From Bacteroidota bacterium (GTDB lineage: Bacteria; Bacteroidota; Bacteroidia; UBA8524): a DNA stretch of 64,000 nt. The first letter of the stretch is position 1. Each line of letters starts with the position of its first letter. The position numbers and the translations under genes are program-made. This document shows positions 1 through 17,208 of this stretch, piece after piece. The stretch spans positions 62,001-126,000 of the forward strand of contig WBUH01000003.1 in assembly GCA_008933805.1 (NCBI GenBank). The letters run 5' to 3'. A model generated the notes under the pieces. It worked only from the letters and a program-made list of their open reading frames with translations. It had not been told where the DNA came from and searched no databases.

Positions 1-104
1 ATAAAACACCGCAACAAATACATCAAAAAACTTTTCAGAATTAACAAACAAGGACTACATTCATAGTAAATAACTGTCAACCTATTTTAGGACGACTCCC
101 TCAC

Positions 105-138
105 AAAAAAAAGCCAATGGCTAACGGCCAATGGCTTT
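105..138 (-). terminator. Rho-independent terminator of the tRNA-Ala gene
   Basis: Read on the minus strand, a stem built from AAGCCA/TGGCTT plus an inner GGCC-type stem (one internal mismatch) is followed directly by a run of eight T. It starts just past the 3' end of the tRNA, which fits transcription termination of a monocistronic tRNA. Confidence 0.75.
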
Positions 139-146
139 TAAGGAAG

Positions 147-220
<74 letters not shown>

Positions 221-477
221 TTTGAAAATTTAAAGGACGGCAAAGATATAAACTGCTGCGTGTGAAATGCAACTATTTATTAAAAAAGTTTACCCACTCC
301 TAATACATTTAGTTTTTGTGTACGTAACTCTCTCTTAACGTTTTATTTATACCCGTACGCCATCTTTGCTGCGTTGCAGTACCCATATAGCAATAGCAAT
401 TCATAGCTCTTTGGTGGCCTTTGTGGTTGGGAAACCACAAAGGCATTTTTATTGCAATAACAAGGGGCAACATTACG
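221..477. other. Intergenic region between tRNA-Ala and bamD
   Basis: I see no credible gene here. An open frame extends upstream of bamD to about 421, but it precedes the promoter of that gene and has no recognisable signal peptide, so I treat it as untranslated. The region presumably also holds the minus-strand promoter of the tRNA gene, which I could not pin down. Confidence 0.5.
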
Positions 478-509
478 TTGGAAATTAACGATACTAAATA
501 TTACCTTTG
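478..509 (+). promoter_or_regulatory. Bacteroidota-type promoter of bamD
   Basis: TTG at 478-480 and TACCTTTG at 502-509 match the -33 TTG and -7 TAnnTTTG consensus, with 21 nt between them. Transcription should begin around 513-517, almost at the ATG at 517, so the leader is very short or absent. The box also argues against an upstream start codon. Confidence 0.75.
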
Positions 510-516
510 CAGGTCA

Positions 517-1524
517 ATGCTTTTAAGCAAATACATAACAAAACCGTTGATAATTGTGCTATTGGGGCTTCTGGTAAGCTCTTGCAGCAAATTTTCAAAA
601 CTGATGAAGTCGGGCGATAGCGAGGCAAAGTTTGAAGCCGCTATGAAGTACTACGAAAAAAAGGACTACTACAAGGCAGGCCAACTGTTCGACGACTTAT
701 TACAAACCTACCGCGGTACTTTGCGTGCTGAGCAGGTGTATTACTACTATACGTACTGTAAATACCACCTGGCCGAAATACCGACGGCAGCCTTTCACTT
801 CCGAAACTTTTTCGAAACCTATACCAACAGCCAGTGGGCAGAGGAGTGTTATTACATGTATGCCTACTGTACCTATATTGAGGCATACCCGTATAACCTT
901 GACCCTTCATACACCTACAAAGCCATTGATGAGTTTCAATTGTTTGTAAACGTGTATCCGCAAAGCAAATACGTAGATAAGTGTAACCAATTGATTGATG
1001 AGTGCAGGGGACGTTTGCAGCTAAAAGCCTACAAAGCTGCTAAACTTTATTACAATATCGAGGATTATAAGGCAGCAATGGTTTCGTTTAAAAACCTGCT
1101 TAAAGATTTCCCTGATTTGGGCGAGAAGGAGAAAGAAGAATCGGAGTACCTTATTATTAAGGCCGCTTACAAATACGCTGAACAAAGTATTGATAAGAAA
1201 AAGAAGGAGCGTTACGGTGATGTAATTACTTCTTACAACTCATACAAAGAAACTTACCCCGCCGGTGAATACCTTAGCGATGCAAAAAGTTATGCCGAAA
1301 GAGCGCAACGTAGAATTGAAGAGCTTGACTTTTTAAACATTGTTACTGAGTATGAACTTGCCGACCAAGGCGACCAAGAGAAAAAATCGGAAGCCTTTAC
1401 CAAGGTAAAAAAAGAACTTGATGACTATATTGCAAAATTCCCCGAAGGCTTTTACACAAAACAAGCCAAGAAGTATGCAGTAAAAGTGCAGCAAAAGCTT
1501 ACCAAATTAACACCCACTAATTAG
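517..1524 (+). CDS. bamD: Outer membrane protein assembly factor BamD
   Basis: A lipoprotein of the beta-barrel assembly (BAM) machine. It sits on the periplasmic face of the outer membrane and helps fold barrel proteins delivered by chaperones. From the ATG at 517 the 335-residue product has a lipoprotein signal (hydrophobic residues 9-20, lipobox ending SSC, lipidated Cys about residue 23). Helical tetratricopeptide-like repeats rich in Tyr, Lys and Glu follow, as is usual for this family. The frame stays open to 421, but that extension would bury the signal peptide and lies upstream of the TACCTTTG box, so I chose 517. It leads a run with rpoZ-like, coaBC and a DUF4835 gene, an order I recall from other Bacteroidota. 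Confidence 0.88.
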   Translation: MLLSKYITKPLIIVLLGLLVSSCSKFSKLMKSGDSEAKFEAAMKYYEKKDYYKAGQLFDDLLQTYRGTLRAEQVYYYYTYCKYHLAEIPTAAFHFRNFFETYTNSQWAEECYYMYAYCTYIEAYPYNLDPSYTYKAIDEFQLFVNVYPQSKYVDKCNQLIDECRGRLQLKAYKAAKLYYNIEDYKAAMVSFKNLLKDFPDLGEKEKEESEYLIIKAAYKYAEQSIDKKKKERYGDVITSYNSYKETYPAGEYLSDAKSYAERAQRRIEELDFLNIVTEYELADQGDQEKKSEAFTKVKKELDDYIAKFPEGFYTKQAKKYAVKVQQKLTKLTPTN

Positions 1525-1544
1525 AATAACCACTTTAATACATT

Positions 1545-1865
1545 ATGATAGTTAAATCAAACGTGCCCGGTTCAACCATTCCCCGCGATGTTAGGGATCT
1601 TGAAAACCCAACCGGTAACCTGTACGAAAGCCTTGTAATTATTGCCAAAAGGGCTAACCAGATTTCGTCGCAGATAAAAGAAGAGTTGCACAACAAACTT
1701 TCTGAGTTTGCTACTGATAACGATACTCTTGAAGAAGTTTTTGAAAACCGTGAGCAAATAGAAATTTCTACTTACTACGAAAAACTTCCAAAACCAACCG
1801 TTATTGCTACTGAAGAGTTTCTTGGCGGTAAGGTTTACCACAGAAACCCCAACAAAGAACAATAA
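1545..1865 (+). CDS. rpoZ: RNA polymerase omega/Rpb6-like subunit
   Basis: A 106-residue soluble protein resembling the divergent omega (RpoZ/Rpb6) subunit of Bacteroidota RNA polymerase, which helps assemble and stabilise the beta-prime subunit. The core NLYESLVIIAKRANQI (about residues 26-41) fits the conserved omega/Rpb6 helix, where a Tyr/Arg-rich start leads to an A-x-R-A-x-Q pattern. A short acidic helix and a tail follow. It begins 20 nt after bamD and its TAA overlaps the coaBC ATG by one base (TAATG), so the two are translationally coupled. The family call rests on this motif and the neighbourhood. Confidence 0.8.
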   Translation: MIVKSNVPGSTIPRDVRDLENPTGNLYESLVIIAKRANQISSQIKEELHNKLSEFATDNDTLEEVFENREQIEISTYYEKLPKPTVIATEEFLGGKVYHRNPNKEQ

Positions 1866-3061
1866 TGCTTTCGGGCAAAAAAATTATTTTAGGTATAACG
1901 GGTAGTATTGCAGCCTACAAAGCTGCAATACTTACCCGTTTACTTGTTAAAGAAGGGGCTGAAGTAAAGGTGGTGATGACCGCCGCCTCGCAAGAGTTTA
2001 TTACCCCGCTTACCCTGTCCACCCTGTCAAAAAACCCTGTGTTGAGCCAATTTAAAAACGGCGATACGGGAGAATGGAACAACCATGTTGATTTGGGATT
2101 GTGGGGTGATGCAATGGTAATTGCTCCGGCATCGGCAAATACAATGGCTAAAATGGCTCAAGGCCTTTGCGATAGCCTGTTGTTGGCCACCTACTTATCA
2201 GCACGCTGCCCTGTTTTTTTTGCTCCTGCTATGGATTTAGATATGTACCGACACCCTGCAACGGCTGCTAATATTGCCGCCTTGCAATCGTACGGTAACG
2301 AACTAATCCCACCCGGAAACGGTGAACTTGCCAGCGGACTCAGCGGGGTTGGCCGCATGGCTGAACCCGAAGAGATTGTCGCTTTTCTGCGTAATTACTT
2401 TGGTACCAACCAACCGCTTAAGGATAAAAAAGCGATGGTGAGTGCAGGTCCTACGTATGAAAATATCGACCCTGTGAGGTTTATAGGCAACCACTCGAGC
2501 GGTAAAATGGGTTTTGCCATTGCCTTACAACTTGCTGAAAGGGGTGCACAGGTAACACTGGTTACAGGTCCTTCGCAGCAACACATCACACATCCTAATA
2601 TCACGAGGATTAATGTTACTTCGGCAAAGCAAATGTACGACGCCTGTGTATCGCACGCTGCCTCGCAGGATATTGTGGTGATGGCCGCAGCTGTGGCTGA
2701 CTATTCACCCGAAAGTGTGGCCGAAGAAAAAATTAAAAAAGCAGGGGAAGAAATGACCCTGAAATTGATAAAAACGCCTGATATACTAAAACAATTGGGG
2801 GCAACTAAACCAGCCGGCCAATTGCTTATTGGGTTTGCGCTTGAAACCAATAACGAATTGGAGCACGCACAAGAGAAACTGAAAAATAAAAACCTCGACT
2901 TTATCGTTCTTAACTCCATGCGGGATGAGGGGGCAGGTTTTGGCGTTGATACCAATAAAATTGTTATTATTGATAAAAATAATACCCGAACCGATTTTGG
3001 CTTAAAAAGCAAAACAGCGGTAGCGGTGGATATAGTAGATAAAATTATTTCGTTGCTGTGA
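1865..3061 (+). CDS. coaBC: Bifunctional phosphopantothenoylcysteine decarboxylase / phosphopantothenate-cysteine ligase
   Basis: Two consecutive steps of coenzyme A synthesis: CoaB ligates cysteine to 4'-phosphopantothenate, then CoaC (FMN-dependent) decarboxylates the product to 4'-phosphopantetheine. The N-terminal flavoprotein domain shows GITGSIAAYKA (residues 10-20) and a PAMDLDMY segment matching the P-x-M-N-x-x-M-type active-site loop, with Asp in place of the usual Asn. The C-terminal ligase domain begins near residue 185 with SAGPTYENIDPVRFIGN followed by SSGKMG. At 398 residues it is the normal bifunctional length. It overlaps both neighbours by one base, so it is firmly inside the operon. 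Confidence 0.95.
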   Translation: MLSGKKIILGITGSIAAYKAAILTRLLVKEGAEVKVVMTAASQEFITPLTLSTLSKNPVLSQFKNGDTGEWNNHVDLGLWGDAMVIAPASANTMAKMAQGLCDSLLLATYLSARCPVFFAPAMDLDMYRHPATAANIAALQSYGNELIPPGNGELASGLSGVGRMAEPEEIVAFLRNYFGTNQPLKDKKAMVSAGPTYENIDPVRFIGNHSSGKMGFAIALQLAERGAQVTLVTGPSQQHITHPNITRINVTSAKQMYDACVSHAASQDIVVMAAAVADYSPESVAEEKIKKAGEEMTLKLIKTPDILKQLGATKPAGQLLIGFALETNNELEHAQEKLKNKNLDFIVLNSMRDEGAGFGVDTNKIVIIDKNNTRTDFGLKSKTAVAVDIVDKIISLL

Positions 3062-13513: not shown

Positions 13514-13828
13514 TTACGCTATTTGTTGCACCATCTTCTCTACTGCCTCTTCTTTCGAAGTGAAATCAGCCACAACCAATTCGCCGTCTTTAAACACAGC
13601 AAACGTCGGCAGGTTTTTAACGCCTACCAACTTGCGGGCTTCGGGGTTAGTTTCGGCGTTCACATCCAAAAACTTTATCCCTTTGTATTCATCTTTCTCG
13701 CTCATACGGTTAAATTTAGGAGCAAACAGGCGGCAGTTACCGCACCAATCTGCATAAAACTTCACCGCCACTTTATCATTATTTTTTAGTTCGTCAAAAA
13801 ACTCAGCGTCTGTTACTTTAGTTACCAT
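13514..13828 (-). CDS. Thioredoxin family protein with WCGNC active site
   Basis: A 104-residue cytoplasmic thioredoxin fold without signal peptide: FYADWCGNC (active-site Cys29/Cys32) and the cis-proline loop N-L-P-T-F. The usual CGPC is CGNC here, a change expected to shift redox potential. The family is common next to peroxiredoxin genes in Bacteroidota, but here the neighbour is only the small DUF6952-like gene. A minus-strand TATTTTTG box lies 8 nt before the ATG. Confidence 0.88.
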   Translation of the reverse strand: MVTKVTDAEFFDELKNNDKVAVKFYADWCGNCRLFAPKFNRMSEKDEYKGIKFLDVNAETNPEARKLVGVKNLPTFAVFKDGELVVADFTSKEEAVEKMVQQIA

Positions 13829-13836
13829 ATATGTTA

Positions 13837-13844
13837 CAAAAATA
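13837..13844 (-). promoter_or_regulatory. -7 box of the thioredoxin gene
   Basis: Minus-strand TATTTTTG, an exact TAnnTTTG match, 8 nt before the ATG at 13828. This predicts a very short leader. Confidence 0.5.
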
Positions 13845-13943
13845 TATTCACTTAAGCATAAACCAAATTTATGCCATATTGTTTAAACATTAATTTAACT
13901 GCCAAAGCCAAAAGCTGCATTATTTTTGGTGTAGCAGTTTACC

Positions 13944-14008
13944 GTTATCGGTTAGCTGTTATCTGTAAATACTGCTAATTGACTACCTGATAACTAATAA
14001 CAGATAAC
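13944..14008. repeat. Imperfect inverted repeat of GTTATC-type hexamers before the VWA gene
   Basis: Two 21-nt arms (13944-13964 and 13988-14008) are inverted copies with 17 of 21 matches. Each is made of GTTATC/GTTA hexamer-like repeats (or their complement GATAAC). The right arm ends 4 nt before the VWA start codon. It could be a leader hairpin or a worn repetitive element like the one around the S23 gene. Confidence 0.6.
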
Positions 14009-14012
14009 TGAA

Positions 14013-15110
14013 ATGTTAGGATACAGATTTACCAAACACACTCCCAAAAACGACCAAAGTACTTTTGATAAGCTGTTTAGCATATTTAAAGAACTGTTGG
14101 TATATACCAGCGGCGACGTAGCCGAATCGTTGGACTGGATGAACCAGTTGGACCGCGAATACCAACTCACGACCAATGAGTACGGTATGGGTGATTTTAT
14201 TGAAGAACTGAAACGTTTGGGCTACATACAGGACGATAACGATGGTAATGGCGGCTTTGCCATCACCTCGAAGACGGAACAAACAATTCGCAAAGATTCT
14301 CTCGACCAGATTTTTGGGAAGCTGAAAAAATCGAAACAGGGCAACCACAAAACCCAGTTTACGGGCAAGGGGGATGAGCCAAGCTCTGACACCCGTGAGT
14401 TTAGGTTTGGCGACGGGCTTGACCAGATATCGATAACGCAATCTATTAAGAATGCACAGGTTAATCACGGTACGGATGATTTTAAACTTACCGAAGGTGA
14501 TTTGGAAGTGGTGGAACAGGAGTTTAAAGCCCAAACCAGTACGGTGCTGATGATAGATATAAGCCACAGCATGATTTTGTACGGTGAAGACCGCATTACC
14601 CCTGCAAAAAAGGTTGCAATGGCACTGGCAGAATTGATAACCACCCGCTATCCCAAAGACACGCTGGATATTATTGTATTTGGCAACGATGCTTGGAAGG
14701 TGGAGATTAAAGACCTGCCATACTTGCAGGTAGGGCCTTACCATACGAACACTGTGGCAGGTTTGGAACTGGCAATGGATATTTTACGCCGACGTAAAAA
14801 CCCCAATAAACAGATTTTTATGATTACCGACGGTAAGCCTACCTGCCTGAAGGAGCCGAAAGGCTATTACCAGAACAGTTTTGGCCTCGATCGGAAAATC
14901 ATAAACAAAACACTGAACATGGCTGCACAGTGCCGCAGAGTAAAGATACCCATTACCACTTTTATGATAGCCAAAGACCAGTACTTGCAACAGTTTGTAG
15001 AAGAGTTTACCCGAGTAAACAACGGCCGTGCATTTTATACCAGCCTAAAAGGCCTTGGCAACTACATTTTTGAAGATTTTGAAAGAAATAGGAGGAAGAC
15101 TGTACGCTAA
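14013..15110 (+). CDS. VWA-domain protein, partner of a MoxR/Mg-chelatase-like ATPase
   Basis: A 365-residue cytoplasmic protein. Residues about 1-170 are a helical, charged region. From about 175 there is a von Willebrand A domain with a complete metal-ion (MIDAS) motif: Asp182-x-Ser184-x-Ser186 in MIDISHSM, the later Thr in G-P-Y-H-T-N-T, and Asp in MITDGKPT. Such proteins pair with MoxR/chelatase-type AAA ATPases, like BchD with BchI, to remodel or load metal into targets. The ATPase gene follows, but an S23 gene lies between them. The substrate is unknown. Confidence 0.85.
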   Translation: MLGYRFTKHTPKNDQSTFDKLFSIFKELLVYTSGDVAESLDWMNQLDREYQLTTNEYGMGDFIEELKRLGYIQDDNDGNGGFAITSKTEQTIRKDSLDQIFGKLKKSKQGNHKTQFTGKGDEPSSDTREFRFGDGLDQISITQSIKNAQVNHGTDDFKLTEGDLEVVEQEFKAQTSTVLMIDISHSMILYGEDRITPAKKVAMALAELITTRYPKDTLDIIVFGNDAWKVEIKDLPYLQVGPYHTNTVAGLELAMDILRRRKNPNKQIFMITDGKPTCLKEPKGYYQNSFGLDRKIINKTLNMAAQCRRVKIPITTFMIAKDQYLQQFVEEFTRVNNGRAFYTSLKGLGNYIFEDFERNRRKTVR

Positions 15111-15116
15111 ATCCCG

Positions 15117-15562
15117 GATGTCGGATTTTAGATGTCAGATGTCAGTTACAGAATTGAACCTAATTAATGAAATCGTATAAAGACTTGGATGTTTGGAAAG
15201 AGAGTAGAAAAATGGTGAAAACCATTTACCTGCTTACCCAAAACTTCCCCAAAGAAGAAACATACGGATTAACCCAGCAAATACGCCGCAGTGCTATTTC
15301 TATCCCTTCAAACATCGCAGAAGGGCACGGAAGAAATACGGCAAAAGACTCGATACAGTTTTTTCATATTTCAAGAGGCTCGTTATACGAACTTGAAACA
15401 CAAGTTTATTTAGCCTTTGATTTAGGATACACTGACGAAAAACAATGTAGCGATGTGATTGAGCAAATATCAACCAACGGTAAAATGCTCAACGGCTTAA
15501 TTAACTACTTCGAAAAACTTAAATAACCCCAATCCGACATCTGACATCTAATATCAGGCATC
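15117..15562. mobile_element. Putative S23 cassette bounded by inverted repeats
   Basis: 29-nt arms at 15117-15145 and 15534-15562 are inverted copies (25 of 29 identical, including a 16-base exact core) built from GATGTC hexamers. They enclose exactly one gene, the four-helix-bundle protein at 15167, and separate two genes that otherwise look like one operon. The layout resembles intervening sequences of 23S rRNA, which encode S23-type proteins and have complementary ends. That it moves as a unit is inference. Confidence 0.5.
15167..15526 (+). CDS. Four-helix bundle protein (S23 / 23S rRNA intervening-sequence family)
   Basis: A 119-residue protein with the family hallmarks: YKDLDVWKESRKM at the N-terminus, F-P-x-E-E-x-Y-G-L-T-x-Q-I-R-R-x-A-x-S-I-P-S-N-I-A-E-G in the centre, and FFHISRGSLYELETQ. 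It forms a pentameric bundle in solved homologues and is related to the Avd accessory protein of diversity-generating retroelements. No reverse transcriptase or variable repeat is present here, and no 23S rRNA. Its only context is the inverted repeats on both sides. Confidence 0.93.
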   Translation: MKSYKDLDVWKESRKMVKTIYLLTQNFPKEETYGLTQQIRRSAISIPSNIAEGHGRNTAKDSIQFFHISRGSLYELETQVYLAFDLGYTDEKQCSDVIEQISTNGKMLNGLINYFEKLK

Positions 15563-15579
15563 GGTAAACAACATATAAA

Positions 15580-17085
15580 ATGACTAAACCAACAACCTTA
15601 GGAGAATTAAAAAAACAAGGCTATACCTATAAATCTGTTAAAGATGAACTTCGTTCAAATCTAATCGTAAAGATTAAGAAGAAAGAAAACGTTTTTGAAG
15701 GGATTATAGGCTACGAGCATACCGTAATACCCGAAATTGAGCGGGCTATTCTTTCAAAACACAACATTAACCTGCTGGGGTTGCGCGGACAGGCAAAAAC
15801 CCGTATCGCCCGCCAAATGGTGAATTTGCTGGACGAATACATCCCGGTTGTGGCCGGCAGTGAGATTAACGACGACCCTTTCCACCCAATTTCGCGTTAT
15901 GCCATTGATTTGATTGCCGAAAAAGGGGACGATACTCCCATAGAATGGCTGCACCGCAGCGAACGCTACGGAGAAAAACTGGCGACTCCCGATGTGAGCG
16001 TTGCCGACCTTATCGGGGATGTTGACCCAATAAAGGCGGCGACCTTAAAACTGAGTTACAGTGATGAAAGAGTAATACATTTCGGGATAATTCCCCGTAG
16101 CAACCGCAGCATCTTTGTGATTAATGAGTTGCCCGATTTACAGCCCCGTATACAGGTAGCCCTGTTTAATATTTTGCAGGAAGGCGATATACAAATACGC
16201 GGTTTTAAATTGCGTATGCCGTTGGATATTCAGTTTGTATTTACAGCCAACCCTGAGGATTATACCAACCGCGGTAGTATTGTTACCCCGCTTAAAGACC
16301 GTATCGGCAGTCAAATTATTACCCACTACCCCAAAGATGTGCAAACGGCTATTGCCATTACCCAGCAAGAGGCTAAACGCAACAGCGGACAGGAAAACAT
16401 AAAAGTGCCCCAACTGGCGCAAGAACTTTTGGAGCAGATTGGCTTTGAAGCCCGCAACAGCGAATACATTGACCCTAAAAGCGGTGTATCGGCACGTTTG
16501 AGTATCAGTGCGTACGAAAACCTTATAAGCACGGCTGAAAGGCGCATTTTGCTTTCGGGCGATAAAGAAACTACTGTTCGCATCAGCGATTTTGCCGGGG
16601 TAGTACCTGCAATTACCGGTAAGGTAGAATTGGTGTATGAAGGTGAGCAGGAAGGCGCGCATATTGTGGCGCAAAACCTTATTGGTAAGGCCATCCGTAC
16701 ATTGCTTACGCAATACTTCCCCAGTCCTGAAAAGCTGAAAAAGAAAAACACCCCCACACAGGCCGACCCCTACGCTACCATTGCTCATTGGTTTGCCGAT
16801 GAAAACGTGCTGGACATAATGAACAACGCCACCCAAAAAGAATATTGGGCTGCATTACAAGCCGTTGAGGGTTTGGAAGACTTTGTGAAAAAGCAGTTCC
16901 CTAAACTATCGCAGGATGAACGGCTGCTGTACATGGAGTTTGTATTGCACGGACTGGCGGAATACAGCCGACTTAGCAAAAACGAGTTGGTGCAAGGCAA
17001 CCGATTTAAAGACCTGTTTAGCAGTTTTATAGACCCCAACCGCTTTACCGCCGACGATGAAGAAGGCATGGAAGGGTTGAATTAA
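15580..17085 (+). CDS. MoxR/magnesium-chelatase-like AAA ATPase
   Basis: A 501-residue AAA protein. The P-loop GLRGQAKT (residues 67-74) is the G-x-A-K-T form usual in MoxR proteins. The Walker B region IFVINELPDL has Asn where most AAA proteins have Asp; I recall this as typical of the subfamily. Sensor and arginine-finger regions follow (FTANPEDYTNRG, LKDRIGSQI). The C-terminal 200 residues are helical. It should act as a hexameric motor together with the VWA protein at 14013, on a substrate not revealed here. Confidence 0.88.
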   Translation: MTKPTTLGELKKQGYTYKSVKDELRSNLIVKIKKKENVFEGIIGYEHTVIPEIERAILSKHNINLLGLRGQAKTRIARQMVNLLDEYIPVVAGSEINDDPFHPISRYAIDLIAEKGDDTPIEWLHRSERYGEKLATPDVSVADLIGDVDPIKAATLKLSYSDERVIHFGIIPRSNRSIFVINELPDLQPRIQVALFNILQEGDIQIRGFKLRMPLDIQFVFTANPEDYTNRGSIVTPLKDRIGSQIITHYPKDVQTAIAITQQEAKRNSGQENIKVPQLAQELLEQIGFEARNSEYIDPKSGVSARLSISAYENLISTAERRILLSGDKETTVRISDFAGVVPAITGKVELVYEGEQEGAHIVAQNLIGKAIRTLLTQYFPSPEKLKKKNTPTQADPYATIAHWFADENVLDIMNNATQKEYWAALQAVEGLEDFVKKQFPKLSQDERLLYMEFVLHGLAEYSRLSKNELVQGNRFKDLFSSFIDPNRFTADDEEGMEGLN

Positions 17086-17098
17086 GGGTTATGGAATT

Positions 17099-17198
17099 GT
17101 GTGGCTGCGGTCATTCCCTTGCAAAAGGGAATCTGTGCGTAGGAAAAGAATATACTTCGCGCAGATTCCCGCCTTCGCGGGAATGACCGCAGCCACAC
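17099..17198. repeat. 100-bp nested palindrome (REP/MITE-like)
   Basis: The outer arms 17099-17118 and 17179-17198 are perfect 20-bp inverted copies, GTGTGGCTGCGG... against ...CCGCAGCCACAC. Inside are two hairpins, ATTCCC/GGGAAT at 17113-17132 and GATTCCC...GGGAAT(C) at 17164-17184 with a CTTCGC loop. It lies between two convergent genes. The GTCATTCCC-type core resembles palindromes common in many bacterial genomes. No ORF is present. Confidence 0.85.
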
Positions 17199-17208
17199 TT
17201 GATAAGGG

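Follow-up and report, generated by a model that had tools for sequence, protein, structure and literature searches.

The segment at positions 15117–15562 of the window, that is, of the whole 64,000-nt stretch of Bacteroidota DNA analysed here, is probably a small mobile element of the intervening-sequence (IVS) type. It consists of a heptamer arm, an S23 gene and an inverted heptamer arm and has entered an mRNA operon in the sense direction, separating two of its genes; our judgement takes in the mechanism proposed below for the S23 protein and its arms. The comparisons that follow establish the anatomy of the element, its empty sites, its recurrence throughout the family, the matched arms that follow the S23 lineage and the purifying selection acting on S23. 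The features of the locus are as follows:

14013–15110, + strand: VWA-domain gene, the upstream host gene (PF13519, E=5.2e-9), whose TAA stop codon lies 6 nt before the left arm
15117–15143, + strand: 5′ arm, the left terminal inverted repeat (89% complementary; strongest pair of its spacing in the window)
15167–15526, + strand: S23 (23S rRNA IVP) four-helix-bundle gene (PF05635, TIGR02436), which starts 23 nt past the left arm
15536–15562, + strand: 3′ arm, the right terminal inverted repeat, which begins 9 nt past the S23 stop
15117–15562, + strand: whole S23 element, missing from the same gap in relatives and with its arms paired in the predicted RNA fold
15580–17085, + strand: AAA/MoxR-like ATPase gene, the downstream host gene (PF07728, E=6.3e-6)

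The two arms are 27 nt long, match at 24 of 27 positions and lie 392 nt apart, which gives an arm-to-arm length of 446 nt with the S23 ORF as the sole gene enclosed, on the same strand as both the VWA and the AAA genes. When extended to 29 nt, they are identical at 25 positions and share an exact core of 16 nt (TTAGATGTCAGATGTC). The first-pass annotation had described arms at these positions bracketing the S23 gene and nothing else, as is confirmed here, but its view that they are made of GATGTC hexamers was wrong, since the unit is a heptamer (best period 7) formed by GATGTC plus one spacer base. Counted from 15116, the left arm reads GGATGTC GGATTTT AGATGTC AGATGTC and the right one GACATCT GACATCT AATATCA GGCATC(G), with four units per arm. 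Among inverted pairs spaced 100–3000 nt apart, this is the top one across the 64 kb (score 19.5, the next reaching 15), and 12 first-order Markov shuffles of the window gave a maximum of 18.5, none of them equalling it. The enclosed gene encodes a protein of 119 amino acids, a clear member of PF05635 (E=5e-41, 139.7 bits against a curated cut-off of 33.8) and TIGR02436 (E=2.9e-39, 133.7 bits against 24), and two solved S23 relatives matched by sequence, 2gsc and 2rld, contain five chains each. No transposase gene lies between the arms, S23 being alone there, and an Rfam scan of 13800–17200 gave no match, with protein genes flanking the element on both sides. Just 3′ of the AAA gene, at 17098–17200, there is a near-perfect inverted repeat (GTGTGGCTGCGGTCATTCCC ... 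GGGAATGACCGCAGCCACAC) that looks like a separate MITE/REP-like element.

The VWA and MoxR-like genes were expected to sit side by side, with the S23 gene splitting the pair, and related genomes bear this out. The AAA protein was searched in 60 relatives, which yielded 14 loci where both genes could be read, and in all 14 the gap measures −1 to 104 nt (usually less than 20) and is free of S23, versus 469 nt in the window. The window is a filled site and the relatives carry the empty ones; at the 56–72% protein identity (AAA) of these relatives, the comparison places the insertion in the gap without fixing its exact ends in this genome.

The precise ends come from other family members. In cyanobacterial plasmids, filled and empty sites could be compared at 90–96% identity in the best cases. 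The element of Calothrix brevissima lies between the stop codon (TAA) of an integrase gene and the next ATG, where Tolypothrix PCC 7601 has just 3 nt, and its ends are the arms themselves, AAGGGTATAGGGTG... at the left and ...CACACCCTT at the right. Two further comparisons, Nostoc C052 with C057 (96%) and N. edaphicum with Calothrix NIES-4105 (87%), also have the arms at the ends, with some flanking bases replaced, while the gap that holds the C052 element contains, in ATCC 53789, related arms but no S23. In these members, therefore, the arms are the ends of the insertion. No target-site duplication was obvious in the three filled/empty comparisons, whose flanks are not identical enough for a strict reading. 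The cas6–cas4 gap of Anabaena 90 and Dolichospermum was rejected as a clean empty site because the Dolichospermum gap holds a different inverted-repeat insertion; the comparison shows a hot gap, not element boundaries. On cyanobacterial plasmids, S23 elements separate cas6 from cas4 in type I-D CRISPR operons (L383, L385), which may explain the reported association of '23S rRNA IVP' with CRISPR (PMC10910872). The start of cas4 in Anabaena sp. 90 contains the 3′ arm of the element, which supplies the gene with a new N-terminus.

Armed S23 genes are far from being a peculiarity of this locus. The genome of the window has seven S23 genes, five of them armed at a score of at least 15 and each with a different arm sequence. 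Taking this genome together with its relatives, 48 of 72 distinct S23 genes are armed at that score versus 2 of 1080 controls, which were drawn at random from the same fetched stretches with identical geometry, and at a score of 18 there are 31 armed genes and no control. A scan of 561 kb found 73 inverted pairs (score at least 17, spacing 100–3000), of which 45 enclose an S23 gene and a further 14 are close to one; these stretches had been chosen around S23 genes, so that the share should not be read as a genome-wide rate. Among named genomes, arms occur at 24 of 47 S23 genes of Bacteroidota (0 of 705 control positions) and at 23 of 33 in other phyla (4 of 495), a set composed of Acidobacteria, Clostridia, Planctomycetes, Ignavibacteria, Cloacimonadota, candidate phyla, Akkermansia, and proteobacterial and other MAGs. 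All six S23 genes examined on cyanobacterial plasmids from five strains are armed as well, with scores of 25–31.5. The suggestion that S23 genes elsewhere would carry such arms holds widely, then, and for about a third of the S23 genes the score, which is ungapped and misses degenerate arms, shows no clear pair; the gene calls are heuristic and the relatives are not phylogenetically independent. The median arm is 29 nt long, about four units, and the best period of the 5′ arm is 7 in 92 of 120 cases and 8 in 21, versus a period of 7 in only five shuffled arms. No S23 relative was found in phage records at E≤1e-5, and no paper linking S23 with inverted repeats or arm sequences was found in the open-licence literature.

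Arm-like sequences also occur away from S23 genes. In the genome of the window, inverted GATGTC-type arms 5.4 kb apart (~1650–1676 and 7054–7080 of L039, G000:C12:128000-137000) enclose a CPBP-protease-like gene and a DNA polymerase III alpha-like gene, without S23, and an intergenic solo array, also without S23, mixes GACATCTGACATC heptamers with ACCATCAAC-type repeats (1360–1458 of L038, G000:C5:149500-152500). The arm sequence of an S23 element can likewise be repeated in neighbouring gaps of the same operon, where it forms short G..C hairpins that lack S23 in L099 and encloses a gene of 359 amino acids in L106, which suggests local spread of the arms.

Arms and protein have evolved together. 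Across 81 armed elements, the arms are more alike the more identical the S23 proteins are (Mantel r=0.42, p=0.001): the mean arm score is 13.5 for pairs with 75–90% S23 identity at different sites, while pairs at the same site with less than 50% identity score 4.5–4.7, the background level. Arm similarity thus follows the S23 protein and not the site, which implies related elements with related arms in different operons and either repeated entry of the same gap or divergence there past recognition. In genus g23, the S23 proteins at other operon sites in G430 and G425 are 77–81% identical to that of G192. The sufB–sufC gap of this genus measures 11–23 nt in six species, holds S23 in six and is longer, with unrelated short repeats, in eight; 7–8-mers such as CTTTGCG, CTTAGTG and CACAGATT appear there in other species (L220–L249), so that this gap is a hot spot for repeats of several families. 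Where S23 recurs in one gap (sufB–sufC, fadJ–fadA, metH), inheritance and re-insertion are mixed. In the genome of the window and in several Flavobacteriia, S23 elements lie between two parts of an apparently split metH (L003, L253, L255, L258, L266, L268), the N-terminus of the downstream part being encoded in part by the 3′ arm (TTNNQQ-like). Compared with each other, the arms of a single element keep a score of about 20 at all distances, somewhat inflated by the choice of armed elements at a score of at least 15, whereas a given arm, when set against its counterpart in same-site orthologs, drops from 39 (above 90% protein identity) to 21, 14 and 13. This matching within an element could stem from selection or from a copying process. 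The S23 protein itself is under purifying selection, with dN well under dS in all pairs that allowed dS to be calculated.

The closest known relatives of this arrangement are the IVSs of 23S rRNA, whose make-up of complementary ends plus S23 ORF had been recognised from the start in the window element, and the likeness extends down to tandem heptamers. The IVS of Coxiella is 428–444 nt long, with a 28-bp terminal stem and an S23 ORF; tandem GACAGAT heptamers, variable in number among strains, precede the S23 start, the element is cut by RNase III in vitro with a site at the first heptamer, and its S23p is apparently not translated (PMC4990558). The window element compares well in size (446 nt), in the 27-nt arms that frame its ORF, in the sense orientation of S23 and in the four heptamers at 15116–15143 upstream of the S23 start. 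In contrast, the Coxiella IVS sits in helix 45 of 23S rRNA, from where RNase III excises it, and its S23p is decaying, while the window element lies between two protein genes and the S23 of operon elements is under purifying selection. The first-pass annotation had suggested that the locus may be an rRNA-type element settled in an mRNA, a direction that the survey does not support: none of the 75 named S23 loci scanned with Rfam, arm-less ones included, has rRNA nearby, so that these elements seem to reside in operon gaps as a rule and in rRNA as a special case. A single element family with operon gaps as its main habitat looks like the economical reading. The origin and role of the 23S rRNA IVS and its protein, described as a toroidal homopentamer, have been called unclear (PMC4990558), and the sources found describe PF05635/TIGR02436 through the rRNA members, none of them mentioning heptamer arms or mobility as a family trait.

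Other known repeats offer partial parallels. Terminal inverted repeats at the insertion ends, as in DNA transposons and MITEs, are seen in other family members, the window itself having only distant empty sites. REP/RAYT and MITE elements likewise lie in intergenic gaps, as short inverted repeats that enclose at most a small gene; unlike them, the window element has no transposase gene, S23 occupying the place of a Y1 (TnpA_REP) gene between its repeats, and S23 arms are tandem heptamers that differ between copies rather than palindromes. A RAYT-like Y1 transposase gene does exist in the genome of the window, between perfect palindromic repeats of 31 nt (L363, G000:C2:244565). In Beggiatoaceae, Xanthomonas and Nostoc, intergenic repeats form arrays of 7-nt units, sometimes inverted, with four units preferred in the Xanthomonas/Nostoc study (PMC4679880, PMC4692102). 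A link to the S23 arms is possible, although the text of those papers mentions no S23 genes.

The arms may instead have been kept for what they do in RNA. In this alternative, which we hold to be somewhat unlikely, the arms pair upon read-through and RNase III cuts the stem, splitting the message and setting gene dosage, with mobility being incidental. The pairing that had been proposed, a stem enclosing the ORF, does appear in the predicted fold of the transcript 15105–15579 (475 nt), where the arms pair around the ORF at −116.4 kcal/mol versus −85.8 for shuffles (z=−5.5), and by analogy with the in vitro cutting of the Coxiella IVS at its first heptamer, RNase III processing of the window element is plausible. 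Moreover, between two co-directional genes S23 lies in sense in 59 cases and in antisense in three (neighbours called by a simple ORF rule), the same bias as in rRNA IVSs, and the arms stay matched within an element while diverging between orthologs. Selection for pairing in the sense RNA predicts more G.U than A.C mismatches, but over 128 elements the counts are 111 and 114, which leaves such selection unsupported, and the arm motif tracks the S23 lineage across operons, as would not be expected of a processing signal that acts only locally. Scans for promoters and terminators around the element did no better than shuffles.

A different question is whether S23 is what makes the element move. 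The arms could be a MITE-like repeat mobilised by another enzyme, for instance a GxxExxY PD-(D/E)XK nuclease or a Y1 transposase, with S23 as one of several cargo genes, an idea that we find unlikely. GxxExxY/PF13366 loci of the relatives (L330–L359) have inverted arms of 7–8-nt units, mostly of the CACAGAG/CACAGATT type, in 16 of 26 cases at a score of at least 15; over 60 genomes, the number of PDDEXK_3 genes is correlated with that of S23 genes (rho 0.51, p 4e-5), and some operon gaps contain arm pairs that lack S23 (L099, L396). Against this, the correlation may reflect general mobile-DNA load, the arms of S23 and GxxExxY genes differ in motif, and the co-divergence of the arm motif with the S23 protein means that S23 is not interchangeable cargo. 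Among 20 S23-rich genomes, two have no PDDEXK_3 and three no Y1, the latter making a Y1 transposase unlikely as universal mobiliser. The GxxExxY genes may be a parallel family or a helper.

Movement through an RNA copy, with S23 acting like its relative Avd together with a reverse transcriptase in trans, would account for the strong sense bias in operons, yet we consider it quite improbable. The window S23 shares the fold family of the accessory protein of diversity-generating retroelements (DGR Avd; NF033474, bAvd PF22296) while falling below both curated cut-offs (NF033474 E=8e-10, 39 versus 80 bits). There is no reverse transcriptase at the window locus, the only RVT_1 match of the genome being on another contig (C1); RVT_1 is absent from 13 of the 20 genomes with at least four S23 genes, and reverse transcriptase and S23 counts are uncorrelated (rho 0.10, p 0.44), so that co-occurrence lends no support to a reverse transcriptase in trans as the mover. 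Finally, a chance inverted repeat beside an ordinary S23 gene can be dismissed: two weaker pairs (score 15) do occur elsewhere in the window, as shuffles also yield, but the Markov shuffles and the control positions, far exceeded by the recurrence across the family, together with the 7-nt period, rule it out.

For the mobile element that we favour, a mechanism can be sketched from these comparisons. The S23 homopentamer would recognise the heptamer arrays, perhaps with one heptamer per subunit (a guess prompted by the 7-nt period of the arms), and would bring both arms together in a synapse; a host or trans-acting enzyme might then move the segment as DNA into A+T-rich operon gaps. Once inserted, S23 would depend on read-through for its expression, and RNase III may cleave the stem formed by the arms, as it does in vitro with the Coxiella rRNA IVS. 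The element encodes no recombinase and no target-site duplication was seen, which count against this reading, as do the S23 genes without clear arms, the lack of a near-identical empty site for the window insertion, the mixed recurrence at certain gaps and the apparent absence of S23p in Coxiella. The strong sense bias is likewise unexpected for a DNA transposon of the ordinary kind, unless selection removes antisense copies.

A broader proposal, about which our confidence is evenly divided, is that of a pan-bacterial class of very small mobile elements that encode a single protein. This pentameric four-helix bundle would recognise the heptamer arms of its own element, which co-diverge with it, at one heptamer per subunit; the elements would live mainly in operon gaps, the 23S rRNA IVSs being those members that landed in rRNA. 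The hosts include core operons and genes such as sufB–sufC, sdhA–sdhB, fadJ–fadA, metH and the type I-D cas6–cas4. If this were true, many genes annotated as 'four helix bundle protein' would gain a context, and the small genes that seem misplaced in conserved operons, as well as the altered gene starts there, would be accounted for. The 23S rRNA IVSs, unexplained for more than 25 years, would then find their place within a class of mobile elements, and if heptamer-armed mobile elements spread across phyla include them as one branch, it would become directly testable whether S23 binds its own arms and whether it moves them.
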